Assembly: GCF_963576615.1 (NCBI RefSeq) | Contig: NC_088711.1 | Coordinates: 36,692,121-36,756,120, forward strand | Origin: Watersipora subatra | Lineage: Eukaryota; Bryozoa; Gymnolaemata; Cheilostomatida; Watersiporidae | Length of the DNA stretch: 64,000 nucleotides | Direction: 5' to 3' | Part shown: positions 6,416 to 63,676 of the stretch, in pieces | Layout: each line of letters opens with the position of its first letter | Numbering within the stretch: the first letter of the stretch is position 1 | Position numbers and translations under genes: made by a program | Notes under the pieces: model-generated | What the model saw: only the letters and a program-made list of their open reading frames with translations | What the model was told of the DNA's origin: nothing | Databases searched by the model: none

Positions 6416-6521
6416 TCAACCAGTGCACTTTCCTCTGTCATCTAGCTCAGCACCCATTTTGTCAGCCATTGACATTAGCAATTCTTTCTGCTGCCGAAGT
6501 AGCTTTTCCATTTCTTTTATC
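6416..6521 (-). CDS. TRPA1-like: TRPA gene 1 exon 23 (coiled coil and stop)
   Basis: Acceptor tttaag, phase 2 in, stop TGA at 6416-6418. Encodes IKEMEKLLRQQKELLMSMAD and a short acidic tail ending CTG. The leucine heptads match the C-terminal coiled coil of TRPA channels. Gene 2 has the matching exon at 51457-51535. Confidence 0.9.
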
Positions 6522-18500: not shown

Positions 18501-21500
18501 GAGCTCTCCGAGTGCCATGTTCATCGTGCTCAGAAGTCCTATATACGGCGTTTCAAACTCTTCCTAAAGGAATACATCTCGTTCAAATTGTGGCTTTAAA
18601 AGTTTAAAAACGGTGATGATATAAAGTTGTGTGAGGTCAAAGGTAAGATAATAAATTATTTTATATCAAGTTATATTTTAACAGTAAGCTAAAATAGACT
18701 AACTTGAACTGTGTATAGAGTTGCTATACTGTTGCTCAGACTGGCTGTAGAGAGGTTTGAAGCTTGACTAGTCATAGGTTAATCTATCTACTAACTAACT
18801 AATCAACACTTTGCCAGTCATACTCTTATAGCAATCCAAGTTATACTGTAGAGCAGCGCTAAATAAGAAGAGTTCTTCCTTCCATTATTTTAATTTATTA
18901 TTCCTTCCATTCCATCATTTTAATTTACTATCCTTTAATTTGCTTTTAATTTTATTTTTTTGATTTTTTTATTATTTTTTATTTCTTTCTCATTTGCTTT
19001 GAACTGCATTTGACTAGAGACAATAAAGTTCATATCTAACTATGCATCTAACTGATCGATGGGATGGACTGATTTACCTGCCCGGTTCAACCGTCTTGCT
19101 AATTCGAATAATCTGAAAATTAAGCACGGTTAGCTTGCTGTTTAGCTCATATATATAATTATTATTTGGTTACTCCCTGCTTCCTACCCTGCTATCAGAA
19201 ATTATAAAAGAGACGATAATCACAGAGTAAAATGTTTGTATATAAACTTACAGTTCGGTGCTGGGTGATTGAGAAACACCATGCAAAAGCAGCGAAGAAA
19301 CACAACATGACCAGGAGAGTCTAAAACATGTGGAGAACAAGTTTTCTAAGGAGTTGTGCTATCTTACAGTTTGGCATGAAATTGTTTGTTATTAGTTCAA
19401 CCAATGATATAAACCCCCCCCCCACTTTATAACATTGGTTTATATCATTGGGGTTTATATCATCGGCGCAACTGAGAAGTTCTAAAAAAACAACACAAAA
19501 TTCTGTGAATTCTTAGACAGTGACTATTATATTATGATTATGTTATTCAGATATTTAGATAATGTATTTAATACCTTTATGACGCTGCTAAGAACTTTGT
19601 AGAACATAGTCATATATATTCCAATCACTGGGACTCTACAAGCATAAACCTTACATAGAGAAAGTCCTATGAGTACATACTGTGTTATTCCAAAATTCTC
19701 TTTATTCTTTAGCTTGTATGGAATCACAGTTTTCTAATTAAATAATAATAATAAATAATTATAATAACCGACTTGAAACATTTTAACCCAATGAAAACTG
19801 TTTTAACAGTGTAAAAAAATTCAGCTCAAAAAACACTCTTAAAACGCTCTGCTGCAACTGGTTAAGAGAAGATAACTCTCCATTAGCCACATGATTTGAT
19901 ATTAAGTAATTCCGTTGATGGACAACTTTATTAAAACATTGAATATAAGTGAATAGTTAAAGAAAAGATATCATACCTGATGAGGTAGTGCGTAGCGACG
20001 AGCCATGCTAGAAACATCCCAATCCACGCAGCCCTCCATTGGTAATTCTTAAGAACAAATGTTGTCTCATCAATGGCTAGGATAGCCACAGCTAAGCATG
20101 ATATCATGCTCATGGTTACGTATGTTGCCCCTTTCTTGAAGAATAACAGCCTCTATAGTAAAAGAAGCAACAAAGTTTGAGTGGTTAGAAAACTGACTAA
20201 GTTTACATGCAATTTATTTATTAATACCTAGAGAATACCTAATAGGTGTCTAGAGAATACCTAATAGGTGTGTAGAGAGTACCTAATAGTTGTGTAAAGA
20301 ATACCTAATAGGTGTGTAAAGAATACCTAATAGGAGTGTAAAAATACCTAATAGGAGTGTAGAGAATACTTAATAGGTGCGTAGAGAATACCTAATAGGA
20401 GTGTAGAGAATACCTAATAGGAGTATAGCGAATACCTAATAGGAGTGTAGAGAATACCTAATAGGTGTGTAGAGAGTACCTAGTAGGTGTATAAAAATAC
20501 TTAAAAGGTGTGTAAAGAATACCTAATAGGTGTGTAAAAATAGCTAATAGGTGTGTAAAGAATACCTCATAGGAGTGTAGAGAATACTTAACAGGCGCGT
20601 AGAGAATACCTAATAGGTGTGTAGAGAATACCTAATAGGTGTGTAGAGAGTACCTAATAGATGTGTAGAGAGTACCTAATAGGTGTGTAGAGAGTACCTA
20701 ATAGGTGTGTAAAAATACCTAATAGTTGTGTAAAGAATACCCAATAGTTGCGTAAAGAATACCCATTAGGAACGTAGAGAATACCTAACAGGCGTGTAGA
20801 GAATACCTAATAGGTGCGTAGTGAATACCTAATAGGAGTGTAGAGAATAACTAATAGGTGCATAGCGATTACCTAATAGGGGCGTAGAGAATACCTAATA
20901 GGAGTGTAGGGAATACCTAATAGGGATGTAGAGAATACCTAATAGGTAGGTGCGTAGCGAATACCTAATAGGAGCGCAGAGAATACCTAATAGGAGTGTA
21001 GAGAGTACCTAATAGGTGTTTAGAGAATATCTAATAGGTGTGTAGAGAGTACCTAATAGGTGTGTAGAGAGTACCTAATAGGAGCGTAGCGAATACCTAA
21101 TAGGAGTGTAGAGAATACCTAATAGGAGCGTAGAGAATACCTAATAGGTGCTTAGAGAATACTTAATAGGTGCGTAGTGAATACTTAACAGAGAATTATA
21201 ATAATTCTAACTTAAAAGTTCAGGGTAGGAAGCGAATAAGATCCTATAAAACTTACTAATGTAATGAGATCCACGACCAGCCTCACTGTGGTCCCTGAGA
21301 GGAGCAGGTAAGTTGTAATACGTAATATTTGTAGTAATGCTGCTTGCTGTTCACTTGGCCTTTCAAATCTGTCTAGAGTTCCTTTCTGTGTATAGATTGT
21401 ATATGTATTTGTTAAATACTTGTGTGAGTTCATCTATGAAACAGTCTAATAAACACACTTGTTAGGAATATAAGGGCATACACTTCCTGCATGTGCTGAT

Positions 21501-24500
21501 AGTTATCCCTGTAAATTATTCAACTTGCAAAAAGTCTACCATGGTGTACCGCAATATAGTAATCGGTTTATATTACTTTTTTGCCAATAATTTCATTTAA
21601 AATAGAAATGTTTTTCAAATGATGCCATGCAAAAATCATAAAACAAGAATAAACAAAAGGGCAGCCTTAAGCCAATAATACCAAAAAACCAAAATACTTT
21701 CTCCGCTAAGACTGCAGATATTAGGTGGATATTAGGTTATACCATCAGGTCAGTATAACTGACCTGATGGTATAATTTAAGCAACTAGGTGAAGTCTTCA
21801 GTTGGCATGGTTCACATGCGTTACAGCTTCTTACCAATATTGTTCAAACAATAACAAATGTCTAGAAGGCATCATTTAATTATTCTCACCATCTTAAGCT
21901 CCTCCAATACAGTTGCATTACTCGCTTCTTCATCAGTTATATTCATGGGAAACCCACGATAGTCTTGGTGGTCTGTGATTACGTTTGGCATCTCGTCAAT
22001 GAATACAGAGAGAGTAACCAGGGCTGTTGTATAATAAATGAAGTCAACGACAAACATTCCTCGTCCAAAGGTTAGCCTAAAAGTTCATACAGAAATATTT
22101 AGTGCAAGGCTACAGACTGCATTCACATTGCTTGAAAGAAATACAGGAAATGCTGATCAAACATTGATGTGATTCTATAAATACTCTTTTCATCTGTCTT
22201 ACAGAGTTTAGTTTGTTTTAGTAATAACTACCAAACTCTACCAGATACATTGATCTCTTATTTACTGCACTTGTAGGCTGCTTCATTATTTAAACCTTGT
22301 GAAAACATGAGCTAGGCGACACACTATCATACGATAGGTTTTCCAACGCCATACGATAGGTTTTACACCATCATATGATAGGTTTTACACCATCATACGA
22401 TAGATTTTACACCATCATATGATAGGTTTTACACCATCGTACGATAGGTTTTACACCATCATACGATAGGTTTTACACCATCATACGATAGGTTTTACGC
22501 CATCATACGATAGGTTTTACACCATCATATGATAGGTTTTTTTACACCATCATATGATAGGTTAACACACCCTGACAGCAAATTTTATAAAAGAACAAGT
22601 CTTGTTTGCCTTGCAGATATTTGAGTGGTATGTAAGTACTGTTATGAGATGCAGTGAGCTCACTAATATCAACCGTGACTAGATGTTTGTGGATATTCAA
22701 ATACTATATTCAAATCTATAGTTGACCATCATATAATGAGTTTACACTAAACAACTTGCCTCAAATAGTAATTAGGCAGTAGAAACAGTAGGCAGTAAAA
22801 CTCACTGATAGTACATCAGTAGGTAGTAATAGTCTATTATACAATAGAACGCTGGTAGATAGTAGTACCTTAGGACCCACTAATACTTTAATAGGCAGAG
22901 TAAAGTAATGGCATGCTTCTGTCATGTAGTGACAATGCTTAGTAGTGTTCTCATGTTCTCATGTAGAGAAACCCACCGCCAGGACTTGTTTTTTATAAGC
23001 TACCTTGGATGGTCCTAACACTTATCAAGTGCTTTTCCTGGAACTGTCAGATTAACCCGAAGGGATGCATTTTGCAACACCTCTAGTCTGACAGAGGTCA
23101 TTTCCCTTGCCCAATGGTTGAAAGTCAAAGACATTACCACTAGGCCACCCTGACACCCTAATAGACAGAGTAATACAGATACAACCTACCATTTGTGCCG
23201 CATGTTCATCTGTGTTACTTCATGCATCATCAAATCTTTACATTCATGTTCGACCATATCCTGAAATCAAGATTTGTAATATGACTCATACTGTACATTC
23301 AGATTGCAATTTTATCATTAGTATCAGGTAAAATTGAATTTTAAAATTTTGTTGTTTTTTGTTACAGAACATGAAATTTATGATCAAGATCATACATGTT
23401 TTAGTTAGGACTTAGATACAGTAATGTCCTTTCGGTGCTCTGTTCAGCCATCGATTAAAAAAATAGGTACGATTATCAGGCAATGAAACCTACAGTTGTT
23501 CACCAGAGACAAGCAACTGCACAGCATGTTTTGTATATATTACACAACCAATGGCTAGAACAAACAAAAAAAAAAATTAAGTTACAGCTCTAAAAACATT
23601 GTTTAAATTGGCCAACTTTATATACCGAGTATGATGTCTGCTTCATTAGCTGTAAACAGTGTTTGGTTTGCTAGCAGAGGCTGCGATTATTTTTAAGAGT
23701 TGCACGAAAAATGGCTCTATGATCTTGGCTGGACATGTCTGAGTCTAGTGACAAGGAAAAGTCAATGACTGGAGACATGACCATTTGGGAAGCTATATAA
23801 GATTAGATTTCATTCTTGTCAACATCATTTTCCCTTTTTGGAATTGTATTTCAACCAATTCAAGTGATCCTGACTTCCTATTTAATTGAGAGAGTTAACT
23901 TTAGAGCAGTTTGATAACACAAGTTTTAACCTTCATACGACTTTAGTTGAGCAAAGGCTAAGATATGTAAAAGCCATTCATTGAGTTTCATGACACAATC
24001 AAATTTAAATAAAAAGAAATACATAGTAACCATGATACAATAAAACTGTTCAAGTACTCTGAACATTAGTGCAGCCAATCGGAACAGTTTATGTTCACTA
24101 AAAGTCGCTGCTGCCTGCAATAAAAATTTCCAACAGTGTGGTAAAATAAGGATTACAAGGATCACATTAAGGATTGAATATGCTCTTAGTGACTGTCTTG
24201 AGCTCAAGCTACAGGCATTCACGTTCTCCCAACAGTGACAACCATCTGGAAGTGAGACTCTTCAACTAGCATACCTTCTCTGCCTAAAGTGACACCTTCT
24301 CTGCCTAAAGTGACACCTTCTCTGCCTAAAGTGACACCTTCTCTGCCTACAGTGAGACCTCCTCTGCCTACAGTGACACCTTCTCTGATTACAGTCACGC
24401 TGTCTCTGCCTATAGTCACACCTTCTCTGCCTAAAGTAACACCTTCTTTGCCTATAGTGACACCTTTTCTGCCTACAGTGACACCTTCTCTGCCTATAGT

Positions 24501-27500
24501 GGCACCTTCTCTGCCTATAGTGACACCTTCTTTGCCTAAAGTAAGACCTTCTCTGCCTATAGTGACACCTTCTCTGCCTAAAGTGATACCTTCTCTGCCT
24601 ACAGTGACACCTTCTCTGCCTACAGTGACACCTTCTCTGCCTACAGTGACACCTTCTCTGCCCACAGTGACACCTTCTCTGATTACAGTCACGCTGTCTC
24701 TGCCTATAGTCACACCTTCTCTGCCTACAGTGACTCTTCTCTGCCTAAAGTGACACTTTTTCTACCTACAGTAACACCTTCTCTGCCTGCAGTGACACCT
24801 TCTCTGCCTACAGTGACACCTTCTCTAACTACTGTCATCCCTTCTCAGCCTATAGTCACAGCTTTTTTGCCTACTGTCACACCTATTTGTGCATGAACCT
24901 CTTTGCTGAGGTAGTTCATCTCCATAACAGACAACCTTCAGAATCTAACCAACCCTAGCACCATTTCCTCTTTGTGAGCAGTGACAGTCACTTGCACTTA
25001 AGGCTCTCTCACCACTCTTTACACCTGCAGTGAACTTGTCAAACTTTCATTTCCTCTCTTTCATCCAATTGCCCCAAAAGCTTTCCTACTGGCATTCCCT
25101 TTTTTTAACAGCGATACCTATCTGCAGTTGAACCATTCCATAAGTTCGACAACTAAGGTCAAATTGTTCAACCACAAATAAATTGTTCAAAAAGTAAGAC
25201 ACTATTAGGCCACTCTAACAGGAAACAGATTCAGTTTTTTGTACAAAAGTAAATTGCAACGGTTTGTTTTTCTGATAGCTTACCGCTGCATACCATGCCT
25301 TGCCATTTTTACAGCAATGACTCAATGGACTTGGATCCATGTACTTGAAATTGTAAGTCACTGCAAAGTCCTCTTTTTCAGGATTTCCTTTATGCTGAAT
25401 GCAACGGTCAAGGACTAACTTGGCTATAGAAGGCATGAAAGCTATCAGCCTTGGCAGTGGGTTGTTACCTCCCTCGTCTACACAGTCCATCGCTTCTTGC
25501 CATCTATAAGATGAGATTGTTGGTACAGACATGAAGAGGTTTCTATAAGATGACAATATCAACTACTAGTAGACCATAATATACCATTTGCACTATAACA
25601 GGTTTCTATAAGATGCATGTATGTGTATGTGGAGAGGGTTTGAGTGGCAAATAGTGCCAAACTAGTTATTTTAAAGCTAGCATGAATACATTAAAAATTT
25701 TTTTTTAGAACTCAAAACACCAATGTTCGAAGTTCTCTGTTTGTGATATTCTAAAGTTACAAGCTTTAAAAATTTCCCAAGATTTGCAGAGCCCTAAATG
25801 GTATTATCACTCTTTTCAAAACGCTGTTAATCTGCAAGTTTACATCATCAGCAAGATGAAAATGGCTAAAATACACAAGCTGTGTTTTGTTATTCGCAGA
25901 ATTTTAAGGCGTGTTCAAGCTTGCGAAAGATAGAAATGGCCTTTGCGAATTATGCTCAAAAATACCGCAGAAACTATTTCATATTAAACATCTTCTACAC
26001 TTCAGCGTGCCATGAAACAAGACCACAGTCAGCACTGCCAAGACTTCTGGCGTTGAACTCCTTATCTTTTTTAACAAAGCGCTTGCATTAATCCACAGCA
26101 TGCAAATGTCGATTGAAACACTCACCGCATCATCTGTGCTATGGAAACATAGTGAATGAACTAGTGAGTACAACACCAGCTAAGGCGTTATCCAGACCAG
26201 TTTAACAGGCTTAACTAGCATCCAGTTGCGCTAGAATGACAACAACCTACACGACTGCAAAAAGATTTCATGTTGGGATAAGAGTTTGCCTAATGGAAAT
26301 CTATATTTCCATTATTGGCAGAGATTTTATCGTAATGATGATAATGGCAGGGCAATAGCATTACATGGTTAACCAGAGGTTTCTTATTATAGAAGGCCAG
26401 GTTTTCTAGAAAGCTTTGAATATTAAAAAACATTTAGAGACATCTTAAACAATATTTGGAAGCCATCTGTTCGGATTGGCCAGCAATACTGCGTATGATT
26501 TGCATTTTTTGCCGTGAGCCAGCTCAGATCTGAGGTAGTTAATCACTAATTACTAGAACTTTCTACTTACATCACTAAAACTATGAGGATGCTTCATGCA
26601 AACAAAGCAATGCGATTCAACAGACTGCAAAAGCAAAACTGTTAAAATATCACCAGACATAATAAAGTTCTTGGAAATTTCAAGCTGATTCAATGAAATT
26701 AACTTAAACATACTTGTCACTGGTGATGATGGCAGCTGCTGCCTGGTGTGATCGACATTCAATGGCAACATCTAAGGGAGTCTGATCTTTATGGTTGCGA
26801 CAGATGACACTAGCTGAATACTGCAGTAGTAACTCTACCACTTGGGAATAGTTCCCTCTGCATGCCAAGTGCATAGCTGTTTCCTGTAATAGAAAAACAT
26901 ACTGAACAACATTAACTACAGCAGCTTAGTAGAGTGATACAATAATTTACTCAGTAATATCATACAATAACTAACTCGGTAATATGATACAATAACTAAC
27001 TTAGGAAGATCATACAATAACTAACTTAGGAAGATCATACAATAACTAACTTAGGAAGATCATACAATAACTAACTTAGGAAGATCATACAATAACTAAC
27101 TTAGGAAGATCATACAATAACTAACTCGGTAATATGATACAATAACTAACTTAGGAAAATCATACAATAACTAACTTAGGAAGATAATGCAATAACTAAC
27201 ACAGTAATATGATCCAATAACTTACTTAGGAAGATGATACAATGACTAACTCAGAAAGATGATACAATGACTAACTCAGAAAGATGATGCAATAACTATC
27301 CCAGTAAGATGATACAATAACTACCTCGGTAATATCATACAATAACTAATTCGGTAGTATGATACAATAACTAATTCGGTAGTATGATACAATAACTAAC
27401 TTACGAAGATCATACAATAACTAACTTAGGAAGATAATGCAATAACTAACACAGTAATATGATCCAATAACTTACTTAGGAAGATGATACAATGACTAAC

Positions 27501-30500
27501 TCAGAAAGATGATACAATGACTAACACAGTAAGATGATACAATAACTAACACAGTAAGATGATACAATAACTATCTCAGTAAGGTGATAAAATAACTACC
27601 TCAGTAATATGATACAATAAGTAACTCAGCAAGATGATGCAATAACTAACTCGGAAAGATGATACATTAACTACCCCAGTAAGATGATACAATACCTACC
27701 CCAGTAATATGATACAATGACTAACTCAGAAAGATGATACAATGACTAACTCAGAAAGATGATACAATGACTAACTCAGAAAGATGATACAATGACTAAC
27801 TCAGAAAAATGATACAATGACTAACACAGTAAGATGATACAATAACTAACACAGTAAGATGATACAATAACTACCTCGGTAATATGATACAATAACTAAC
27901 TCATAAAGATGATACATTAACTACCCCAGTAAGATGATACAATACCTACCACGGTAATATCATACAATAACTAATTCGGTAATATGATACAATAACTAAC
28001 TTAGGAAGATCATACAATAACTAACTCAGTAAGATGATGCAATAACTAACTCAGTAAAATGATGCAATAACTAACCCAGTAAAATCATGCATCAACTAAC
28101 ACAATAGGATAGTAAAATCATTACCTCAGTAAGTTGATAAAATAGCTAATTAATAAAAAGGTACAATAACTAGCTAAGTATAAAAATGAAATAATATAAC
28201 ACAATAGGACGATACGATAACTAACTCAGCAGAATCATTCAAAAACTAACACAATAGGATGGTAAAATCACTAACTACATAAAATAATGCAATATGATAA
28301 ACTATTTTTCTCTGATTATCAAATGAAAACAATCCGACACAAAGAGCATAACATCAATTACCATGCCAGTCATCACTTCTATAGGATTCTATCATAAATT
28401 GAATGGTTCATCCGATGAACTGATATTTGGCAGATTCCTCAATATCATCTCCATATTCTAGTTACAATGAGTACCTGATATTTGGTAGACACCTCATCAT
28501 CATTTCTATACTTTAGTTACTGTTAGTACCTAATATTCGAAAAATATCTCACTATCTACATGTATATACATAAATTTCAGTGTTTGTCTGTCGTTTGTGT
28601 GTCCAGTTAAAGCGATAAAGTTATAGAAATGAAAAATCTGCTGCGCACTGAATTTGAACTTGGAACCTCCAGATCTGCAGACAAATGAGTCTATTCACTA
28701 GGCTATATGGCTACATTGCTATACAATGGAATAATTGTAGTCATACTTATTAAAATTTTCCAATCCTTAATGCCAATTGGTTAAAATAGCATGTATCATG
28801 CTTCAGCGAATACGCTTGAAGATCATGATTGCGTGAGAGATCCTGATGCAATTTTTTTCTAACGGTGGCTTACGTATTAGCCACTATAATACTTTATCAA
28901 ACTACAAATCTTTACCATAATAAGGGCTCTTATTATAGTAGAGATTTAGACTAGCCTAAGTTACTCAAATTCATTGGGTAAAGCAACTTAGCCGATCAAA
29001 AATAAATTTTTTATGCAAAAACTTATTTGATCACTCGTACAATGCCGGGCATTCACCGAGTCATCTCTATACTTTAGTTACAGCTGATACCTGATATTTG
29101 GTACACACTTCTGTATCATCAACATGCTCTAGCAATAGGTCTATTATTTCTAGATGACCATTACAGGCAGCGGCTGTCAGTGCAGTGTGACTATACTCAT
29201 CACGGCCTCTTGCTGACACGTCCCCTCCATGCCTACTCATGAAACAGATAAACATTATGGATGAACACAAATATATATGCACATACTTGTGTATAATATA
29301 TATATTTGTATATAATGTATATATATTTGTATATAATATATATATATATTTAGTACAAATTTAGTTCAGATGCAAGAATGTAATAAATAACCAAAGAAGG
29401 AGTACATCATGGTGTGGTTTACTTTAGAAGGGCTTTGACACTAGCGTAGTGGCCATTCAAACAAGCGAGTAGCATTGGAGTACACCCTTCAGCATCATCG
29501 TCATTGATCTCTGATTTGCTGTGGCGAAACAGAGCTGTGATGCATTTTGGGTAGCCATTCCTACAAACATAATTGTTTTACAGAAAATTGTTTTGCTGAT
29601 ATAGTGTACACAGGCTAAAGCTACCCCCTCTTTGTTCTTACACTGATATAGTGTATACAAAATAAAGCTACCCCCTCCTTGCTCTTACACTGATATAGTA
29701 TACACAAGATAACGTTCCCATCAGACAATTCACATTAACATGATGTCATAGGAAATTGTTTATCACTATAGAGATATGGGATGCCTGAGAATTCTGGGTG
29801 TTTTAGCGAGCAAGAGTATGCGGAATAAGGAATACATGTCGGTGTGTTACTATGGCCATAGTTGTCTGCTGATGACTCTTTCATCGTAGCCTTTGTGCCA
29901 GCCTTTTAAGGATGCTGCTATTACTCTGGTTCATTGGCATGCAAACATTGCAAAATAGTTTTGTATGCTTTTCTAAGCATGCACTCAATTTTGAGGGAAG
30001 AAGCATCTGAATGCTGGGTTTGACAGTTGAAGGAGCAAAGTAAAGCCAAAACATTTATAGGAACGATTGCGCCAAAATTTGTAGCCGTAAACGAACAGCA
30101 ATTTTACATCAACTGAAAGTTAACTTATCAATAAAATATTTTTCCAAGTCTGCAAAAATCATTTAGTTTTTGTCTACAAATCTGCATTCACTTTATGCCA
30201 AAGTTCGCCGATTTTTTAATTTTTGCTAACACTTTCTGTAAAAATACATGTTTGTGTAATAGGGATCTTTTTAGTAAACCTAATCATTATAGGCAAACTG
30301 TTGATATCAAACCTCATGTTTGAAAGAATGTATAACATGGAGTGACGGTTGAGTTGTTAATATTACTGGTTGCTTTATGTGATTAACACGATGTGACCAC
30401 AGTCACTAGACTCATGTGTTTGTAGCGATTTCGCCTATTTTTTTCTAAACAGACATGCTGGAGAAGCATCTGTCTTTTGCAAACTAATAATCGGTCCTTC

Positions 30501-33500
30501 CTATCATTGGAGCAAACACCTCTCACCTTCTCTCATGCAATAAGCACTTGAACATTGCAGGATGCAACAAATAGAGGTTATTAAAACTACTGCTGCAGTT
30601 CCACTTATTATTTCACAGCCTTCAGCAAACAATTAACGAGTGAATGAGAAAAGTGAACCATTAACATGATAGTAAGGATACTCACAAAACGAAACAGAGC
30701 ACTGAAATACTTTATTCGTTGCAAGGTCATTCAGAGGTGAAAAATGGCGGCTTATCTAGTTAGCTTTAGTAAAGTGCACAACTTACTTGGCAGCAAGATG
30801 TAGAGGGGTCCTGTCATCCTCATCTCCAGCTGCTGGGGAGGCCCCTAAGTGAAGAAGTTTCAATAAAAAATCTAGTTTTCCCCTCTCAGCGCAGTAGTGT
30901 AGCGCTGTCTTCTCCCCAACGTCCTTAAACGCTATGAGTCTTTCCAATGCATCCTACATGTTAATGACAAATTTAAATGTAAGACAGCTACAAGCAACGG
31001 AACTATGCTTCTGAAAAGGTTTGTATGTTAAATACTGTACGAATGAATAATAACCTTCTTTACTATAATAAAGGCTGAGTTGTTCCGTTTGTCCAAGGAC
31101 AAAGTGGAAAGTTGTCAAAAAAAGACTGCCTCATGTGGGATTTGAACTCATAACTTTCAGCATGGTAGACCAACACTCCAACAACTGCAACGATCAACCC
31201 CTCTTTGATTCTCAGAATAATTGTATGTGTTATACCTGATGCTCTCTCACAGCGCGCTAGACTACCAAGGTACTAGTATATATGACATCAGATCTATTGT
31301 CGACAGCATACATTGATGTATGAATTTAATTCATGTAGGAAGCAAGATCAGTTTGATCTAACAATTACTCGTCGCAAACCATAACTTTCTTGAGTAGATA
31401 AATTGCAGAGAAAGTGGGCTCAGTTTTCGACAAAGCAATTTAATTTTTATTGCATAGCAGTGTCTATACGCAAAAAGTTGTTAATCTTGATGCAGCAGTC
31501 TTCCACCATAAACGAGTATACTATAATCTGCTGCATTTGAAAAATAAATACTACTTGGCTAGTGTAAGCAACCAACTAACCACAGTACGTTACAGTTGTC
31601 ATACAAACTCTCGTACGTTAGAGGTTTTGAATACACCTGGTAGTGAGGGTCATAGAAACACCTACTTAAGTTAGAGTACAGCAGGTAGAGTAAGTCATAG
31701 AAACCCCCACTTACCGTAGGTTTGAGTTTACCAGGTAGTGTCGGTCATAGGTTAGAGTACACCAGGTAGTGTCGGTCATAGAAACCCCCTACTTAGGTTA
31801 GAGTACACCAGGTAGTGTCGGTCATAGAAACACCTACTTAAGTTAGAGTACACCAAGTAGTGTCGGTCATAGAAACCCCTACTTAAGTTAGAGTACACCA
31901 GGAGTGTCGGTCATAGAAACCCCTACTCAAGTTAGAGTACACCAGGTAGTGTAGGTCATAGAAACACCTACTTAGGTTAGAGTAAACCAGGTAGTGTAGG
32001 CCATAAAAACACTTGCTTAAGTTAGAGTACACTAGCTAGTGTCGGTCATAGAAACACCTACTTAAGTTAGAGAACACCAGGTAGTGTCGATCATAGACAC
32101 ACCTACTTAAGTTAGAATACACCAGGTAGTGTAGGTCATAGAAACCCCTACTTAGGTTAGAGTACACCAGGTAGTGTCGGTCTTAGAAACACCTACTTAA
32201 GTTAGAGTACACCAGGTAGTGTCGGTCATAGAAACCCCTACTTAAGTTAGAGTACACCAGGAGTGTAGGTCATAGAAACACCTGCTTAAGTTAGAGTACA
32301 CCAGGTAGTGGAGGCCATGGAAACACCTACTTAAAGGTTGACTTGCAACAAAATTCACATTACCGTTATTTGATATGAAAAGATTCACCATGTCTTACTC
32401 TGTTGTGTTGTAGGTGCAAAATATGTGGAAAGGTGAGTACAAGCTCTTAAAAGCTCAAAAACAAACAGAAAATCGCAGCCACACGAAACCGCTGTAGTTT
32501 GGATTCCCTTTCCAAAACGGCTCAAATGTGATGTAGTTGTGAGAGATGGTTTCTGTCTACACTTTCTTGCAACCTTATTCGTCAAAATATTTTCACAAAT
32601 ATACTTCACGAATTCAATAAAATTATGTCTATTGATCTTACGCGTCTGTTTTATCGTCATCGTAATGCTGTCACTTTTAGGACTGATATCTTATAACTTA
32701 CCGTAAAAAATCGTTAAAACTTTTTAACCTTACCTCGAATGAGTACATATCATTGTCTGATAATCATGACGAGCCTGTTGGTCACTTGTAATAATCGAAA
32801 AGTGCTGCAGAAATTATTTGCGAAGTATTGGGTCACATGATCAGATTACGACTTGATGATTAGATCAAGTCGAAACAAAACTGTAAAGTAGCGAGCATCT
32901 ATATTTGATACGGGGTCTTCGGTAAAACCCGAAGTGTTTGTCATAAACTAGTGTTACGATAAGTTTTATATTAAGCTTTTTATTGGCCTTTCAATTCACG
33001 TGAGAACATACGTGACAAGACAATAACCAAATTTGGTGGCTACGTCATCGAAATAAAGAGATTCCACTCTATGACGGCTTTTCGTTTTTGAGCTTTTAAG
33101 AGCTTGTAATCAAATTTCCACATATTTGGCACCTACAACACAACAGAGTAAGACATGGTGAATCTTTTGATATCAAATAACTGTAATGTGAATTTTGTTG
33201 CAAGTCAACCTTTAAGTTAGAGTACACCAGGTAGTGTCGGTCATAGAAACCCTTACTTAAGTTAGAGTACAGCAGGTAGTGTTGGTCATAGAAACCCCTA
33301 CCTAAGTTAGAGTACAGCAGGTAGTGTCGGCCATAGAAACCCCTACCTAAGTTAGAGTACACTAGGTAGTGTCGGTCATAGAAACCTTTACTTAGATTAG
33401 AGTTCAGCAGCTAGAGTAGGTCGTAGAAACACCTACCTGAGGTAAAAGCTCAACCAATAATTCAAGGCATGAGAGTTGGTTGCTGATGACACTGTGATGC

Positions 33501-36500
33501 AGAATACTTCTACCCAAATCATCTGTCAAATCAACCAGAGCGCCATTACTGATGAGAAATCGTACTATTTCTAACCGCCCTTTTCTCACTGCATAGTGGA
33601 GTGGAGACATATCTTTAACATCTACTGCATTTATGTCTGCTCCCTGTAAACCATAACATGATAACATTACAACTGTCTCAATCTTAAATATGTATAGGCT
33701 ATAAGAATATTGCAACTTAATTTAAATGTATTGGATGGTAAATGAAAGACAATCAATTTTATTAAAGAACTCAGGCTAAAAAAGGTAAATACATTATAAT
33801 ACCTGTTAGTAAGGTATAACTAGCATGTGCACTCTGTAATGATTATAGAAAAACCTTTTAGAGTTACTTAGCTTCATGGCTAAGGTTTGAGCTCCTTTGA
33901 AGAGTTATAATAATGATGAAACACAAGGTTGTCTGAAGGTCGAGTATATAGATGTAAGACAATTTTATCAGTAAATACTAACTTACACAAAGGTGTTTTT
34001 ACAAATAGTTGTTACTTATAGCTGATTACGGCTTATAGAAACCTGTTACTGACAGATAGCCATTGCTTACCGATAGTTGCTATATATACGGATAGCTGTT
34101 TCTGACAGACAGTCATTGCTTACAGATAGTTGCTATATATAGATAGCAGCTACTGACAGATAGTTTTTACTTACATTGAGCATGATGAGCTGAGCAAAGT
34201 CACTCCGTGAGTCGAAGGCAGCTGCCCTACAGTTACAAATGTTCATAAATACTTCATTGCTACGGTTATAGTGCTCAGTCTGATTTCACGGAAACACAAC
34301 TGTGCAGGGAGTCATACAAACAAGACCTTTTATAGTTATGCGCAGTGCTCTTAGCAACTAACCACAAAACTATGTTTTTACCTATGTGATGGCGTGGTCC
34401 TTTTAACTAGAGAACTCAACTCTCTCTTACCAAGATATTTGTTCTGTTTACCTTATGTGATGATATTTTCATCAATCTGTATTTAAACCAACCGTGTAAT
34501 GAGATAGAACCTAAACACCAACCTACTGTATCTATCTAATAAAATGTTAACTTTATGAGAGTGTAATCTTATCTATATTACATCTCTGGCAGTCGAGTGC
34601 CCCGCGAGAGATCGCCATTTTTCATAACTATCTGCAAAATTATTTTCATTTACAGCCAAGTCATGTCAAGTCAATTCGAGTGGCGCTGATAGCAGTCTAC
34701 CTGTTTGCTAGGTCAGCTGTCTGAGTTCGAATCCCGGGTGATGCCACTGTTTTTCCAACACCCACCCGTGGCTTTGACAGACACATCTTTTATTATAGTA
34801 AAGTTTCTGCTATAGCAAAGAATATCATTCAGTATTTAATAGTAAATTATTCTGTCTGTTTGTAATAATGCTTTGCTGTGATTCTAGAACATTCTACAGA
34901 TGTGCATTGTATATGTACCTATGTAAAGGCGTTTGCTTGCTGACTGTAGTACCATGGAGATCTGCTCCATTTTTCACCAAAAGCTCTGCGATTTTAACAA
35001 ATCCAAACATGGCTGCCAGATGCAACGCAGTTGAACTGTCTGTCTGCAACATATACACACACATAGTATATCTTCTATACATAACCACTTCAAATATCAT
35101 TCTCTGACAAGACCAAACAAAGCCATATCAGAATAGTTCAGAAAGTTTGGTGTACTGTGATCTTAGCCAGTTGAGAAGAAAGCTATGATGAGTGAATCCA
35201 AGCAGCTATAACATGTAGGAACCAAGTATTACCGACCTTGACACAGTTCACATCAGCTCCGGCCTCAAGCAGACGTTTCACATGCTCACAGTGATTATTA
35301 ACAACAGCCAGATGTAACGCAGTAGACCCTTCATGGTCTTTCTGGTGGAGATAACTTTTAAAACTGCCATACTTGGATTTTGCTGTAAATATTATATAAT
35401 TGTTATCTAATTCAGAATGTGCTAGCAATATTAAAGTATGCTTGAATTACCAATTCCTATATCAACTTTGGAAATTGGAACTCGAAAATAATTGACGAGG
35501 TTGGAATACACTTCCGTCGATCAAATTAAGAATGTGAGATATATTAGTAATTGTCATGTTCTATCGATATCAAACTTATAATCAGTGGCAAGCAACTGAA
35601 TAAAAAGTTGGTCACACTATGTGACCTGCCAGTGAGGAAATATCTATGACAGAATACATGATTGTTTAATTATTTGAAAATAGCTACTTCCAAAACCTAC
35701 GGAATTATTTCAGAAATGTTTTGAACCTTTCCAGTTATAACGCAAAATTCAAATTTTAGACAAAATTCAAGGCTGAAGAAACTATGTCAATGACTTACAT
35801 GGCTGTTTCAGAATCCAATTTTTTAAATTTCATGACATGCAGCTAAATATTTCATATTTATATTGTAGCCTAAATTGCCCGGAACTATTCTAACAGAATT
35901 AGTCATCACTTTGGTATCATTATAGCTGATTGATAGCAAGGATTATACATACTATTATCCTGTCAGGGCGGTGTATCATAAATAGATAGGCACTTGGGTA
36001 GATAGATTAAAATATAGATAAATAGATCAATAGATCAACAAATAAATAAATATTTTGTTTATTATAATATAAGAGATCATCAGGTGTGGCAATGTGGAAC
36101 AGGGAATAAGTATGTGCATAGGTATTCTATAAACCACGAAGATGGATGACTAGCGCAGAGGGTAGGTTGCAGGGCTGGCAAGTGAAATGTTGTGAGTTTA
36201 AACCTCATTTGGTGATATCTTTTCAGCCTCATTCCATGGCTTTGAACAGAAGGAGACGGCTCTTATTATAGCAAAAATTATCAAGTGATAAAAAAAATGA
36301 TCAATAACTCACTCGCGCTCCTCAAAACTATACAACAACCATTGGGAAAGTTCAATAAGAAAACAAGTTATATCAGCAGCAAGTTTTTCATGTCGTATCA
36401 AACATGTATGTTACTTAACATGCTTCGCTTACTGGGAGTTGTCTTCCTTTTCTTACCTGTATCAATGATCAACTGCAGAATATTTACATTCTTCTCCACA

Positions 36501-39500
36501 GCTGCTAAAATCAGCGCAGTTTGGTGTCCAATATCTTCTTTGCAAACACTCGCGCCAGAGTTTATCTAACAATACAGGAGAGGTTGTTTACCTTCTTGTG
36601 TTATCAATAAAGAGATAGTCTATAAATTGCATTTTACATGTATGTTGAAATACCGTCACGGGTGTTCGTGACAGTCTGATGTTATTCTGGATGTGGAGAG
36701 TAACCTAGATTAGCTTCAGATCTTGTAGCAGAAGATAAAAGAATCAAATAAAAGCCCCTTATAGAACTTCAAAGACAGTAAGCTACTTCTCTACGTCACA
36801 AACATAATCGTAGTACAAAGTTTTGAAGAAATTAAACCAGAGAGAAGTGGAGGACTTCATATTTTTTTGGAGTAATCTATGTTTAGATACCTCTAGCATC
36901 TAGCTACAATGTCTAAAAGATGCAAAAAACATATTTCCAGGTTTGTCATTTTTAGCTTCTTGTAGTAATTTCAACAGTTTGTTATGTCTACAAAGCTTAA
37001 GCTGTAAAGAATTTGAATACCCACACCAAGGTTTCTTCCCCAAACGAAAGGTTCTTTACATATTAGCATAAGTGAGGGAATACTCACACTAAGGTTTCTT
37101 CCCCAAACAAAAAGTTCTTTACATATTATCATAAGTGAGGGAATACTCACACCAAGGTTTCTTCCCCAAATGAAGGGTTCTTTACACATTATCATAAGTG
37201 AAGGAATATTGAATCACTTGACTTAACTAAAACCTCAACAGTTTAACACTCTGAGAAATCAGAACAATAAATTTCTTTACAGGTGTGAGCTTTAAGGTTT
37301 TTTAAACATCTGAATTTGCAATTCTTCTTAGTAATCTACGAGTGCTTACGCCGCCGCGTATGGCTGGCAACAATGAACTAGACTTATTCAAACCATACCA
37401 GCAGTTGGCAAATGTCATACGATCCACTTTTGATAGCAAAATGTAGAGGAGTTGAGTTACTTCTGCTTCTGATATCCACATCACAGTGGGGCTGGCTAAG
37501 TAACACCTGCAGGTAAACAATCTATATTACAGTGGGGCTGACTGAGTAACACCTGCAGGTAAACAATCTATATTACAGTGGGGCTGACTGCGTAACACCT
37601 GCAGGTAGACAATCTATATTACAGTTGGGCTGACTGAGTAACACCTGCAGGTAAACAATCTATATTAGAGTGGGGCTGGCTGAGTAACACCTGCTACTAA
37701 ATATTTTCCAACAAAGCATGTGATTGGCTGCTTCCGCATCACTTAGTGGCTATTTTGCTGACACTAGCAACAGAGCATGTAAAAGATGCCTTCATACTAT
37801 TCTACAAAAGTCCAGAACTTACAAAGCTAGTACTGGGGAGTAAAGAGATTTAGCAAATAGCGAGTAGCAATCAATTATGAGATGTTTATGTGACGCTGAT
37901 TGTATTTGTTAACATACTCAGATGATGGGAAAACCAGTTCTTCATATCAAGATAACAAATAAATGCCATCTGTCAGACTAATGACTAGAGATGATATGTT
38001 ATCAGCTCATTCTAAGCTAGTTACTACTTCCAATTGCCAATTGAAAAATTAGACATATGGCACACTTCCTGTTTAGTTCTTTTAAATCTTTATCAGTATT
38101 GCTGCGTGGCTGTAGAACTAACACATCAGGAGTAATGAAAAAATGTCTGAATTTAACTAAACTCAGTGAGATTAATCTTCAGGTCTGCTTACTAGCCTAG
38201 CAATCACTACTTCCTGTCAAAGATGAACTTACACAATATTTTGGTAGAGTTATCAGAAAATATCGCTATCTTTCTATCATTTCCGGGTGTTTTTGATGTT
38301 TGAGATGATCTGACTGGTAAGATGTTTCAAGAATGAAATTGATAAACTTGATCGTGGTTAGAGCACTCAGAAGAAAAAGACGTGCAAAACGACATCACTA
38401 GCTGATATCGTTGCGATAGTACATATCGCGACGGAATCGGTTATTGCGTTTAAGTTGCAGCGTTACACGTTTCTATTCGATCTCTTTGCAACTATTGGTC
38501 ACTTTCACTCAATCTAAATGTTTTAACTGCAATAAAGGTTTATCGATTTTAATGTTGAAACATCCTGGCAACCAGATCACTTCAAATATCAAAAGCAATC
38601 ATAAATGATATAAAATCACTTTCTGATGAAAATTAACTAACATTCTGTATAAGTTAATCTTTAATAACAAATAATAACGATTATTGCATTAAATAACAAT
38701 TAAATAATAAATAAGGATTAAATGATTTACTAATTTTAATAATGCATAGCAAAAGAAGTAGGACTTTACTACTAGCAAATGAGTCACCTCGAATACAACA
38801 CCAGGGCAGAGCTAAAGCTGAACAACTGTCATTTGAACTGGTAAAAAGATGAAATATCCGCAGTTCTCTATTTAGTCATAGTTTGATAAAATGTTGATTT
38901 GAAACAATTGGAAAATAAATCTCCACCCTTAAGGTTTATACAAACATCGAACAAATAGAACTGTCTTCATAAAATACCGATAATAGTATATATAATTTGT
39001 TTTTTAGGTCAATACGAGGTGCGGACTGCATGGCAATGGATTATTCAAGGAGAGGTTTCATATGAAAATTATGCACACATTAGGAAACGTATCAGATGAG
39101 CTTCCTACAATCAATAGAGAGGCACAGAGGTAGGGCTCTAAAGGGTGAACAAAGTAATTTGGAAAGCTCCTGTACAATGTAAATATGTTTTAATGCTATG
39201 CAAGAATCTGAACAAATTCAAGATGCTACAGATTTTACCATGTGTAACACCACCAACAGACTTGTATACTGTATACCGAACTAGTAACAGTCTTAAAGCG
39301 AGCCCTGTCACTAATGACGCATTGTTAGAGATGATGGCGATATATAAACACCTAAAATATCCGTTTTTTACCTTTTCAAACAGCTGGTTATGAGAGCTTA
39401 ATATAATCCTATTTAATCTGTTTATCATTAAGCTTATAGTCACACATCTACAATTTCACATCCCATTATTTACTTCCATCAACTCTACTAGACCGTCTGA

Positions 39501-42500
39501 CGACTCCATGAGCTCCATGAATCATACATTGTAGTAGAGCTCATGTGTAGTAGATCTCGTTATTTACTTCCATCAACTCCGCTAGACTGTCTGGTCACTC
39601 CATGAGCTTATAGTCATACATTGTAGTAGAGCTTATGTGTAGTAGATCACATTATTTACTTCCATAAACTCTACTAGACCGTCTGACGACTCCATGAGCT
39701 CTATGAGTCATACATTGTAGTAAGGCTCATGTGTAGTAGATCTCGTTATTTACTTCCATCAACTCTACTAGACTGTCCGGTGACTCCATCAGTGCATGAC
39801 ATCAATGTCTTACATTGCGAAGGCTTTGAATCTTGTACACAGACAATGCCCTCAACTCTATAGCTGCGTAGAGCATCTATTCAATACCTGACCAAGCCTA
39901 CCTTTAGGATGTAGATGCTGACTTACTATAACTTAACTTACCAAATTAACTTTGGAAAGAAAATGTAACCATAGCAACGCTGTTTACATTTTAAAAAAAA
40001 GTCTTTTGAATTGAGTTCTAACATGGAAATAATTGTTTGTATCTTTATGGTAAAAGAGCCAAACTAATTTTTTTATATAATTGATTTATAAAGGCTTTTT
40101 TTATAAACTCCTAACTTGCTAATTTATGACTTCAAGATCAGACCATCTTAGAGTAAACAACTCTGTCCATAAAAACGTTTTAACAGCTTTAATACTGAGA
40201 TTTGAACCCTTTATTGTTGTGATTTGCACCCAGTGTATAATTGATGAGACATATTTGCTACCTGTTATTACAGCAGCTCGCTTGCCACCAACTGCCACAG
40301 TCATTTACCAAGAGAATAACTAATTATGAACTTTGTTAAAACTAGATAATATTGTTTTACTTTACAAACAATAAATGTTGCCAAGTTTTAAAATGAAGAA
40401 CTGGTAGCTCTTTATGCCACAAGCTGCCTACAACACGCGTACCTCGATGAGATCTTTATTTGCTTTCCTGGCAGCCATGTGCAGAGCAGATTTACCAGTA
40501 GAGCACATCAAGTCCATCCTGGCTCCGTGACTCAATAATAGTCTAAGTATTTCCTGTCTCCGATGTTTAACAGCGAGATGTACGGCAGCATAACCATTCT
40601 TGCAGTAGCTGTTAATATCTACAAAAAATGATTCTTTCTCTATCAGTACTATCATAATAATAAACAATAATATAATACAGTTCAGCCTTAATTTTAGACG
40701 TTGTTCATTGCGTAGGAACAACGGAGGACTTTTGTCTATTTTTAGAGCTAGAGAATATGATGAGACCTTGTGTAATGTAAGATTAAAGGTAGCCCACGCA
40801 AGTAGGCTTCAAAAATATCAATAAGTGAAACTTTAGATGATAGCGTGTCGATTTTGAGTTTTTTTTATAACCCTTAATAATAAATCTCACGTTGTCATAT
40901 TGCGTGTCTGTTAGCTCATTTAAATGTTATGTCTCCACATTTTTTGCCAATTTTATCCAAACATCACAAGCATGTGTAATATCTCTTCCACCAAGTTGCA
41001 AAAACTTTGGTTTCACAACTCTCCTGGTTCCTGAGAAAAGAGCCTCTTGAACAGCCACCTATTTGATTAAAAATGAAAAAGCATCGCCTCGCTTACTGCT
41101 AGTTGTTACTAAATTTTATAATTACTAATAATTAAAATTTTAATCCTAAACATTATTATCATCGTCAGTATGATATAAGGTTGCTCGGTACAATTGCCAT
41201 GTAATTGCAAAACAAAAAATATTATTATCAATTAATAATATATAGCAATCAGTTAATAGTTAATTGTGGGGGAAGGGGAACCAAAAGAAAAGGGCAATGA
41301 AAAAGGTTGTTAGCCTAAATGTGTCATGCAAAAGGGATGAGAGTAAAAGTTTGTGGGGTTCTTGAGAGACCAAGTCAGAAAGTATTTGTTAACATAATGT
41401 TATGCTTAATGAAAAATTTAGAAAGTAGATCAAAAAGATTAACTCTTAGCTTTCCTATAAATCACTGTTATTTGATTGCTTCTAGCACGCATGATTATCT
41501 TTGCCCTTGACATCTTCACTTGTGTTTAATGCAACTGGCAGATTGGTATGTTAACTTGGGAGTGCCTTATCGAGGCAAATACCAATCCTCAAAACGAAAT
41601 AAACGTCTCAAGTAAAACTCATACCCGTGGGGCAACAATATGTGCAAATGTACTTACATTAAAGGTGAAAACCCTGTTTGTGTTTTCAACAGGTTTTTAA
41701 AATATGTAGGCTTCGAACACTTAAATTAGACCCTACAAGGAGCTGTTGTGCTAGTGTGTCACCAACTTGCTTACAAAACATAGTCATAATGATAAACAAC
41801 ACTTCTTCTGAAGTTTATAAAAGTAAAATGGCTCATGTAAAATGTTCTGAAGATATTTATTTTTGCTCTACAGTTACGGGTTTAAGAGCTGATAATCTGC
41901 TACTCAATTTCAGCTGATATCTGTGACAATGAGTTCGCACTCATTCTAACCGATGTTGCAAGTAATAATAGTGTAATTTCAGATGCCTCAGGCCTTAAAA
42001 ATGCAACAATTATAATACCGTAGTAACAGTCTCGAAAGCTACAAATTATCCTTGTCAAACGATTACGCAATCCATTATATTTTAACAGGATTGACCAGAT
42101 TGCAACTCATATAGCTGATGAAAAATAAGGTCAATGCATGTGTAAGGGCGATAGCAAGCTCGATGGTACGTGAATTAGCAAAACAATCAAAATCTTCCAA
42201 GAAAAAACTTTGTTCGCTTTTTATTCGCACTCACGCTTTGTAAAATAAAATTTTTTAAATTTGAAACTAGTATTTGCAATGCAATTGATTAAATAGAGAT
42301 TTTATCACCTGACAGCTCCACTTCATGTTAGTAGATCCAGGATAAACTATACTGATTATAGACAGAGACTACTGAATGCTCGGCGTTGCCCAGGTAATAA
42401 AAAAGCCTTTGGGCAAAAATTTGATTTGTATTTAACCTATAACAAAATTTGCTATTCAAGAAAAATTCAATTTGTCTACGTACCATATATGTATGAAGCT

Positions 42501-45500
42501 CACACACTCTCCTATATGTCTATACTAGCTGTGCTACCTGGCATTGCCCGGGTAATAAAAAAGTCTTTGCACAGAAAATTGATTTGTATTTAACATATAA
42601 CAAAATTTCCCATTCTAACTTTCAAACTAGTATCATGAGAAAAGTGTTTCGTGTAGTTGAAATAAATTAGGAGAAAAATAAAAACAACTGTAAAGGTTTT
42701 CAAACTTTGTCAAGCAACTATAACTTTCAAACTTCATATCATGAAAAAAAATGTTTTGTGCAGGTCAAATAAATTAAAAAGATAAAAAAACTTTAAAAGG
42801 GTTTTATAGTTTATGAAAATGCTTTTTAACAAAGGGCTTTATGTAGGGCTTTATAAAAAGATCTAAATGTGAAATAATTAGCAAGCAATAGCTAAATTGA
42901 ATTGGTTTTGCTACAATTGAAATAAAAGATGATGCAGTAATTATACAATTAATACGAACTGAGAAAACAAAATAAAAATTTTGAATATGTAGAATTAATA
43001 ATAATAATTCTTACATAGAAGTGTGTGTGTATAAAAAAATGTTACTGTTCCACTAGAAGCTATCAATCAAAACTTTGAATATGACGATACTGGTACCTCT
43101 GGATACTGGTATCTCTTGATATTGGTGCAAATGTAAAAATGAGATATCGTACTGTCTTTGTCTGACCGAACGGAGAGAGAATGTCGAGGTTCTTCTCAAG
43201 GAGATAATATAATTGTCCGCGTGAGAAGAATTGGCCTTGTCCCCAGATATTGTAATCGAACCTTTCGAAAAATGTATTTTTAACAGGGGCATCATAATGC
43301 ATGGGTGCGATGCTAAAATAATTAGAATGGGCATACTGGTATACTGTATATGATAACGTCTTATATCATTACGCATTGTATGGCTCAGTAGTAGAGCGCA
43401 GTAGTAGAGTAGTAGAATTAATCTTGTGGTATCAATCTCTGTGAGTTCAAATCCATCAGAGCGGAGATTATAAATTTCAAGATTTTAATAGCTAACATTG
43501 AACACGCATACACACATATACACATACATACACACAACCAACTTTGAAAAATATATATAGAAAAAAGAGAGATTACAAAGGAAGCTCATCTCATACCTAA
43601 CATCGGGTGTTCAACCAAAAGCTGAACCACCTTCAGGTGCCCATTCTCTGTAGCCTTGTGGAGGGCTGCTTCACCCACCCTATCTAGCAAGTTTACGTTC
43701 ATCTTTTTCTGGGAGAGTAGTAGCTGTACCCGTTCATAGTCTCCCACCTCAGCTGCCTGGAGAATAGAATATCATAATTATTCTTTGCCCCTTTGATATA
43801 TACACTTTTACTATTAATTTCTTACTTTTATTTCATCGTTTGCTAATTTTAATTGTTATAAGAACCGCGTCCATCCAAATCCATGTTTAGAAGCAATAAA
43901 AAAGATTGCTTGTAACGGGATTTATACTGCAACTTTTTGGTTGGCATATCAACACTCTACCAACTACACCAATTCACTGCCTTGTCAAGCTGTGATATAA
44001 TTGCGCTGTTCCTTATTATACTTACTAGTAGGCTGGCAGCCTTTAAGAATCATCACATGTAATAACTATGTGCACAATTATTCTTAGATGTGGCAAAGTG
44101 GTGGGGTGGCAAGATGGTAGTGTGCTTGAATGAAGATCTGAGCATCCGGTTTTGATTCCTACACAGGGCAGTATTTTTCCTAGTCTCTAAGCATGGCTTC
44201 GTACAAACGTATGGACATTGTTGTTATTATAGAAAATACTAGTACGTTGGTACTCCCGTGCACTGTGAAACATCAGCAAGCATAATAAGTATGTACACAA
44301 CTATTCTCAAAATTGGATAAGTGATCGAGTAGCATAGTGATAGCGTGCATGCCATAGCTTTGGTTTCGATTCCAGCCCCGTGCAATTTTTTTGTTCTCAT
44401 AACGCAATTGCTGTGGCTTTGGACGAACAGACACGGCTCTTATTATAGTAAAGACTAATACACTTGACAGTCCCGTGCACCGCGAGAGATCAGTATTGCA
44501 TAATTATCCCATGAAGCGGTAAGGTGGCTAAGTATTGTAGTGGTTAGTGCGCCGGTCTGTAAACCAGAGTGTCTGAGCTCGACTACCGCACGAAGCAATT
44601 TTTTTGTTAACACTGTTACCGTGGCTTCAGATAGACGGATGAACTTGGATCTTATTATAGTAAAGATTACACACGACACAGCAGACTGCTAGGGGAGTTC
44701 TAATAATGTCCAAGTCGATTATGATTCAACTCCTAAATTTTGAATAAAGCTATGGAATTCTAAATGAAGTTCGCAAACAATCATACTTGCTTGAGTTAGA
44801 ACAAGGTGCATAACTAATGATGATAAATGGCTCTCAGCTGAGGTTGAATCATAAAATCTCAGTTTCAACTGTCAGAAGAATGAATCAGCGAACTTTGTTA
44901 TGAGAACTTTAAGGACTGACTTCTTACAAACAGTCTGACACCTCGCCACTGTTACAGATTTAGTATTGCTATTGTATTTAGTATTCAGCATTGCTCATAT
45001 AATATGTATATATACTGATGAACTGTATAGCTTTTTTGTCTACATGACAAAGTGAAGTAATTTACATGCCAAAGAATAGTCTTTTTTATTAGTGTTTTCT
45101 AGTCCTCTGTCTGTGTTTGTGCTAAGTGTGAGTCAAATAGCCAAAATTGATTACTCTTCAGAGTGCAGTACTGACTCATAGTTTTTTAGTTAAGTCTTGC
45201 TAATAAAGCTGGGTGTACATTATTGCAGTACATGGTAAGTTAATATCTCAATGTTTTAAATATCTACAAGGCTTACAACATATCAACTCATTTTTTTATA
45301 AAAAATTTGTAATCATCTATGTTACCAAAAGGTTTTTACAGCTAACATCTTTTACACTATCTGATCTCACCAACTAAATTGAAAAACAAGAAACAATTTT
45401 CAAATAATTTTATTAAAAGAGGTTTTCTGGTCTCGTACTCATCTCTTTTTAGCATTGAGATCATCAAGCATTAGTTCTTTAGTAAACACACTGTTGGTTA

Positions 45501-51456: not shown

Positions 51457-51535
51457 TCATGTCGCTCCAGCCTTACACGCAACAGACATTAGTAACTCAT
51501 TCTGCTGCTTTAATACTGACTCTATATTCTTTATC
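51457..51535 (-). CDS. TRPA1-like: TRPA gene 2 last exon
   Basis: 79 nt, acceptor tctgtag, phase 2 in, stop TGA at 51457-51459. Encodes IKNIESVLKQQNELLMSVAC then KAGAT. It matches gene 1 exon 23 (KQQ.ELLMS) but stops 9 codons earlier; the bases after the stop still resemble the gene 1 coding sequence (GATGACAGAGGAAA in both). Confidence 0.86.
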
Positions 51536-63126: not shown

Positions 63127-63479
63127 CTGCCATGTACAAAATACGGAGTTATAATAATTTGTGTACTAGTTGAATGCAGGCATTGCACGAGTAATAAAAA
63201 ATTTTTTTGTACAGAAAGTTGATGTTTAATCATATCGTATACAATATTCACTATTCCAACTTTTAAATAAAGCTGTTTGTTTATTTCTATGCGTGCTGTA
63301 AGTTTAATTAAGTTTATTCTATATATACTTATATTTATAGCATTTTGGGAAGTCTGTGGACATATTTTTCTTCTAGTAAAATTTTTCAGTTTAGGAAATT
63401 GTTCAACCAACTGAGTGAAGCGTGAAGCCTGGGGATTTCAACCAATCGCTATTGAAGATTGGCAGATGTAGTAAGTATG

Positions 63480-63640
63480 TGTACAATCATTCCATAGTAT
63501 GGCAAGTTGGCCGTATGTTGTAGCGGTTAGTACGCCGGTCTGAAAAACCGGGATTTCCAAGTTCAAACAGTGCGAAGCAGATTTTTCATTCCTATATTTT
63601 AATTGCTATGACTGGACACACAAATGACAGACAAACAAAA
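63480..63640 (+). mobile_element. tRNA-derived SINE
   Basis: tRNA-like head GTAGCGGTTAGTACGCCGGT with AAGTTCAAACAGTGCG, close to the copy at 44505-44670 (GTTAGTGCGCCGGTCTG). Confidence 0.6.
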
Positions 63641-63647
63641 ACTGAGA

Positions 63648-63676
63648 TTTATATATATATATATATATATATATCT
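63648..63676. repeat. TA microsatellite
   Basis: Run of TA dinucleotides at the end of the SINE. Confidence 0.85.

Follow-up and report, generated by a model that had tools for sequence, protein, structure and literature searches.

How does a minisatellite come to start at a splice donor, and does the donor itself play any part in its birth? The question is raised by a tandem array in an intron of the bryozoan Watersipora subatra, the units of which are in register with the 5′ splice site and carry copies of it into the intron. Here, we examine this array and the other repeats of its host gene in a window of 64,000 nt, the whole stretch of DNA analysed. With a probability of roughly 0.8, the array is a minisatellite of the kind called "mirages" in amphioxus, in which ordinary tandem growth has carried the donor along passively; the reading draws on the anatomy of the array, the strength of its donors, the stop codons inside it and the repeats found at other borders of the same gene.

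The host locus

Two TRPA1-like channel genes lie head to tail on the minus strand of the window, at 6416-48319 and 51457-63126. The proteins that identify them, P0001 and P0002, were found by way of a partly spliced translation of minus-strand exons. P0001, an NCBI TRPA1-like protein of Watersipora with 1111 residues, matches the minus strand exactly, letter for letter, in 24 coding exons from 48319 to 6419, and its spliced mapping gives a whole coding span, start codon to stop, of 6416..48319, with an AG acceptor and a GT donor in all 23 introns. P0002, a second NCBI TRPA1-like protein of W. subatra, is the upstream neighbour; its last six exons are inside the window (63126-51457), and it is 35 to 92% identical, by piece, to the exons of the first gene. 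The host is classed as a TRPA1-like channel by its combination of ankyrin repeats and an ion-channel domain, P0001 being listed with PF00520. A partial query of the host protein matched solely ankyrin-type families in Pfam (seven of them), and in the PDB it matched TRPA1 chains at E about 1e-62, ranked under NOMPC and ankyrins. Scans of the 64,000-nt window for Rfam families and tRNAs returned no matches.

Remains of mobile elements accompany the genes. An intron of the upstream gene holds long open frames on the minus strand (53434-55101) with a Spin-doc zinc finger (Pfam), which by eye resemble the remnant of a hAT-like transposon. A reverse transcriptase fragment (RVT_1, Pfam) is found at 4432-4923, also on the minus strand, and more such open pieces can be seen by eye at 3566-4428.

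The array under study lies in the intron that follows coding exon 9 (33437..33643, minus strand), an exon of ankyrin repeats that ends ...CTTTTACCTCAG in the exact spliced mapping of P0001. The acceptor used after this intron is that of coding exon 10 (30787..30953, minus strand). Because the exact protein (...LLVELLPQ|DALERL...) fixes both the end of exon 9 and the start of exon 10 at 30953, the donor CCTCAG|GTAGGT at 33436 is correct at the level of annotation; on the minus strand at this position, the exon end CCTCAG is followed by GTAGGTGTTTCTACGACC. The preliminary description of this DNA had placed the start of the array at the donor of exon 8. The donor was correctly seen, but the exon that it closes is coding exon 9 in the mapping of P0001.

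Anatomy of the intron 9 array

The array is built of direct repeats in tandem, with a unit length in the size range of minisatellites: 20 units, each of about 45 bp, keep register with the donor, the first of them adjoining exon 9, and there is a partial unit near 31745. Counted in this register, units 1 to 5 form an exon-side block (33212..33436, minus strand) and units 6 to 20 a far block (31640..32334, minus strand), in which the last one or two units are degenerate. The authentic donor GTAGGT (33431..33436, minus strand) provides the first bases of unit 1. At the start of the unit, GT is in register in 17 of 20 cases and GC stands in its place in two, and one start is off by one base. It had been thought that each unit border reads AG|GT; in fact, of 19 internal borders, two (33346, 33301) have AG before the GT, and most read AA|GT.

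The two blocks are separated by a transposon-like element of the MITE type, 877 bp long with 134-bp terminal inverted repeats (32335..33211, no strand assigned), recognised from its sequence and from relatives in the window. It stands at a unit border, flanked by a TTAA target duplication at 32331-32334 and 33212-33215. The repeat units thus fill about 0.92 kb and not the 1.8 kb first reported. Near full-length relatives of the element, 81-91% identical, are present at 11865-12740, 14442-15342, 46922-47798 and 60478-61387, and make up a family of transposon-like elements of about 880 bases with 134-base inverted ends, the TTAA duplication being seen for the intron 9 copy. Elsewhere, at 9100-9661, a 132-base tandem array has the last 30 bases of the approximately 880-base element inside every unit, and is apparently a minisatellite born from a transposon end.

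The tables of variants and identities cover 17 of the 20 units and exclude three that fall one base out of register. On average, unit 1 is 0.79 identical to the 16 others in the tables and the last unit 0.73; the remaining units range from 0.83 to 0.91, except for the unit at 32016 (0.80). A T at position 22 is found in just two units, the first (33436) and the next-to-last (31710), both of which also have C30 and T19. Old units kept at both ends and a more uniform middle are the common picture of a minisatellite.

Whether the unit extends into the exon can be judged from the similarity of the border to the 19 copies, which is 0.89 over the first five intron bases, 0.51-0.57 over the last ten exon bases and 0.04-0.12 over the preceding fifteen. 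Exon 9 ranks first among 28 exon ends for its likeness to the flanks of the units, if narrowly (9 versus 8, and 7 versus 6 under a second scheme), and the edge of the array is placed 8 bases inside exon 9 by an ungapped measurement versus exactly at the GT by TRF. On these weak indications, a short piece of exon 9 may belong to the unit.

Two further observations were made by eye. A CTAAC stands shortly 5′ of TTAA|GT, and the unit was considered as a mini-intron or a lariat-derived copy. Units of 22-23 bases that look alike (ACCTATCATG and ACCTATCGTATG, minus strand) make up one array in each of two introns (10600-10974 and 22321-22563), as if the two arrays were related.

Repeats at other splice borders

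The 28 donors and 28 acceptors of the mapped introns (23 in the gene and five in its paralogue) were each compared with the rest of their own intron, using as query 15 exon bases and 30 intron bases. At a score of at least 28, four donors are repeated, those of introns 8, 9, 12 and 23 (scores of 28, 45, 54 and 34, respectively), as are two acceptors, one before exon 4 (80) and one in the last intron of the paralogue (28). Strong self-matches were flagged in introns 9, 12 and 23 and at the acceptor of intron 3. The intron 8 donor and the last acceptor of the paralogue are weaker; both score 28, against 22 and 23 for the best of 60 controls, and they count solely at the threshold of 28.

Each of the arrays concerned in the first gene was delimited on the minus strand by self-comparison, combined with TRF and the spliced mapping at introns 8 and 23 and at exon 4. 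Intron 23 begins GTGAGTAGTTT, and this sequence is repeated with variation across 740 bases (7855..8594), in units of about 33-34 bp, many of which start like the exon 23 donor. The intron 8 array (34034..34175) consists of 2.7 units of 51-53 bp, starting GTAAGT or GTAAGC at the exon 8 donor (34174). At intron 12, 55-bp units (28420..28537) hold copies of the exon 12 end and its donor (ACCAAATATCAG|GTA); the better copy is alike in 24 of 30 bases to the exon end itself, mapped at 29091..29120. The copies are now about 550 bases from the exon 12 end, behind an inserted dispersed repeat. At exon 4, a 46-bp array of 4.6 copies (37483..37694) includes the acceptor and the first 24 bases of the exon. 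Copying of the splice site, as in mirages, is therefore clear at exons 4 and 12, which are true boundary duplications because exon sequence itself is copied, and at exons 8, 9 and 23 it is the donor that is copied.

The dispersed repeat between exon 12 and the copies of its end (28545-29060) is SINE-like by eye, and similar pieces with 72-87% identity are found at 63435-63669 and elsewhere. In the paralogue, no donor repeat is present in the corresponding last intron (52141-51536), so that the array of intron 23 either postdates the split of the two genes or has been lost from that intron.

Origin of the arrays

From this anatomy we infer the following order of events. A tandem duplication, arising by replication slippage or unequal exchange, would have copied a segment of roughly 45 bases from the start of intron 9, to which about 8 bases from the end of exon 9 may have belonged, and the GTAGGT donor would have been carried along because it was inside the founding segment. 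Further slippage and exchange would have brought the array to about 20 copies and evened out its middle, and a mobile element with a TTAA target would later have landed between two units and divided the array in two. Comparable repeats arose at other borders of the gene, namely at the donors of exons 8, 12 and 23 and at the acceptor of exon 4. Passive growth of this kind is supported by units that are in register with the donor and by the step in similarity at the donor. It is the ordinary growth of a minisatellite, and differs from the directed growth outward from the 5′ splice site that was originally proposed; the latter is unsupported, given old units at both ends, no excess of repeated donors and rare AG|GT borders.

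A related reading takes the gene to be so rich in minisatellites that some arrays simply abut donors and the donor-like starts of their units are coincidental. Tandem repeats do cover 17.95% of 49,545 intron bases, compared with 1.2% of 4,026 exon bases and 0.08% of one shuffled copy of the window, and repeated donors are not in excess, four of 28 being found where random intron 45-mers predict 5.6 (P(4 or more) 0.89). Repetition is no commoner at donors than at random positions in the introns because arrays fill 18% of the intron DNA, and the earlier expectation that arrays would be found at donors more often than at random fails in this small sample from one locus. Acceptors, with two repeated versus 5.6 of 28 expected (P(2 or fewer) 0.027), are somewhat under-represented among the repeated borders. 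As the random control was one 45-mer per intron and the donor and acceptor queries contain 15 exon bases, both tests are slightly stricter than their control. The motif AGGT, moreover, occurs equally on both strands of the consensus units of 27 arrays (8 sense and 8 antisense), the 28th (the 132-bp array at 9100-9661) being omitted since its consensus is incomplete in the TRF output. Set against these points are the copies of exon sequence at exons 12 and 4, and the mean identity of 79% between the donor-containing unit of intron 9 and 16 other units, which makes it one of the copies. We regard pure coincidence of neighbourhood as unlikely, although it overlaps with passive growth and the weights given to the two are not exclusive.

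AG|GT borders were also tried as a mark of a splicing origin and rejected, being found at 2 of 19 borders with AGGT equal on the two strands of the 27 consensus units. In a raw comparison in which base composition is not controlled, AGGT reaches 9.4 per kb on each strand of the array consensus units (n=27), about three times its density in intron sequence outside the arrays (3.1 and 3.3 per kb).

The other reading to be weighed is that the 5′ splice site is a preferred start for tandem duplication, so that arrays begin exactly at the GT; possible causes are microhomology provided by the donor motif, breakage linked to transcription, or copying from an intron RNA. Evidence for it comes from the edges of the arrays as called by TRF (rows with a period of 10 or more inside mapped introns, with overlaps merged and the split intron 9 array taken as one). 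The upstream edge is at most one base from a donor in three of 28 intron arrays (8594, 33436 and 34175), where 0.129 is expected (Poisson P 0.0003), and no edge of the 28 is within one base of an acceptor; for 602 cryptic donor-like sites, one edge of 28 falls as near to any of them, with 1.02 expected. The three edges exceed what plain passive growth predicts (0.13), though they are not reproduced when the arrays are measured without gaps: among the 16 arrays that reach at least 100 bp, no edge then lies within two bases of a donor, and the edges for introns 8 and 23 fall 33 and 39 bases inside the intron. Similarity also steps up at the donor, from 0.12 to 0.92 in intron 23 (13 copies) and from 0.30 to 1.00 in intron 8 (two copies), but these copies were aligned on GT by hand, which favours a step there. 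Donors are, in addition, repeated no more often than random intron positions, the arrays of exons 4 and 12 straddle the border, and the edge test was picked post hoc at one locus. With TRF for them and the ungapped re-measurement against them, exact starts at donors are a suggestive lead rather than a result, and seeding by the donor is an improbable account of the intron 9 array. Its wider form, in which the minisatellites of bryozoans are preferentially born at splice donors, with duplication starting exactly at the exon-intron junction and half-donor arrays lying downstream of exons, is quite improbable; if it were true, such arrays would be a reservoir for new splice variants.

Donor strength and splicing

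The authentic donor, at a matrix score of 11.4, is the top of the 20 units, and every copy is weaker, the best reaching 7.4. Fourteen of 19 copies (15 of 20 with the authentic donor) nevertheless reach the 10th percentile set by the window's 28 donors, so that the initial figure of about 20 potential donors was somewhat high. The density of donor-like sites per kb is 18 and 23 in the two blocks of intron 9, 45 in the array of intron 23 and 35 in that of intron 8, versus 11.5 in the rest of the intron sequence. When exon 9 is read on into the array, the frame gives VGVSTTYSSC and then a stop at the 11th codon, and a stop is present in 12 of 12 translated units of intron 9.

Most likely, the exon-side donor is still the one spliced and the inner donors are unused, because the exonic half of the signal (CAG) is absent from all the other copies and reading on meets the early stop; the NCBI protein model likewise predicts use of the first donor. 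That the copies are retained to serve as alternative or decoy donors regulating intron 9 splicing, or as recursive splice points, is most improbable despite the many copies of usable strength and the density of donor-like sites, given that AG|GT is so rare at the borders, that use of an inner donor brings a stop, that the array is broken by a mobile element and that the units vary at the donor, two of 20 having GC. A recursive (ratchet) splice site has its acceptor and donor fused as AG|GT, and this class was rejected for the array on its 2 of 19 internal borders.

Comparison with known systems

In the open-licence literature searched, no report of splice-site minisatellites in bryozoans was found. 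The genome note for W. subatra (PMC12902671) describes a chromosome-level assembly from PacBio HiFi and Hi-C, with RNA-seq and a second haplotype deposited, and the words "intron" and "tandem" do not occur in the available part of its text. A paper on Flustra (PMC13326412) discusses repeat content, and the word "minisatellite" is absent from the part available.

Internal tandem repeats are known to have altered human paralogues, with minisatellite units of about 30 bp, some at an exon-intron boundary (PMC2812944, as far as its available sections go). Those repeats changed exons or formed introns, whereas the NCBI protein of Watersipora shows no such change. In the model of Rogers, introns are gained by tandem duplication of segments containing AGGT, as in the potato RdRp gene (available sections of PMC4974935). 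The likeness is that a tandem duplication across an exon-intron border adds splice signals; the difference is that no new intron has appeared in Watersipora, where the array is inside a working intron 9 and brings stops when read into. Intron gain of the Rogers type was accordingly set aside as a class for this array, which lies within intron 9 and has AG|GT at 2 of 19 borders.

The closest parallel is with amphioxus, and the precedent given in the preliminary description, minisatellites at intron boundaries there, is a real one, the mirages (PMC3087553, PMC3902484; both for the sections available). These are known from Adh3, the globins BflGb6 and BflGb9, PGBD5 and troponin C, with repeats at donors and acceptors of several genes and AG/GT in many, but not all, units; splicing is reported as normal and the length of the repeats as unstable. 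The Watersipora TRPA1-like gene similarly has minisatellite-like tandem repeats at both types of border, with units of about 33 to 55 bp, compared with 10-72 bp in amphioxus Adh3, 60 and 108 bp in PGBD5 and 150-160 bp in the globins. It differs, going by the same sections, in belonging to another phylum, in having repeats at five borders of one gene, in three arrays that carry little or no exon sequence, and in an intron 9 array of 20 units that is split by a mobile element.

The intron 9 array and its sister arrays are thus most likely splice-copying repeats of the amphioxus mirage kind, now seen in a bryozoan. They also provide a useful null: where 18% of the intron DNA consists of arrays, a gene is expected to have several repeated donors with no special mechanism at work. 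W. subatra is a convenient place to test the effects of tandem repeats on donors, on intron length and possibly on intron gain. If such arrays are common in bryozoans, mirages would be an outcome of minisatellite-rich introns generally, and not a peculiarity of cephalochordates.
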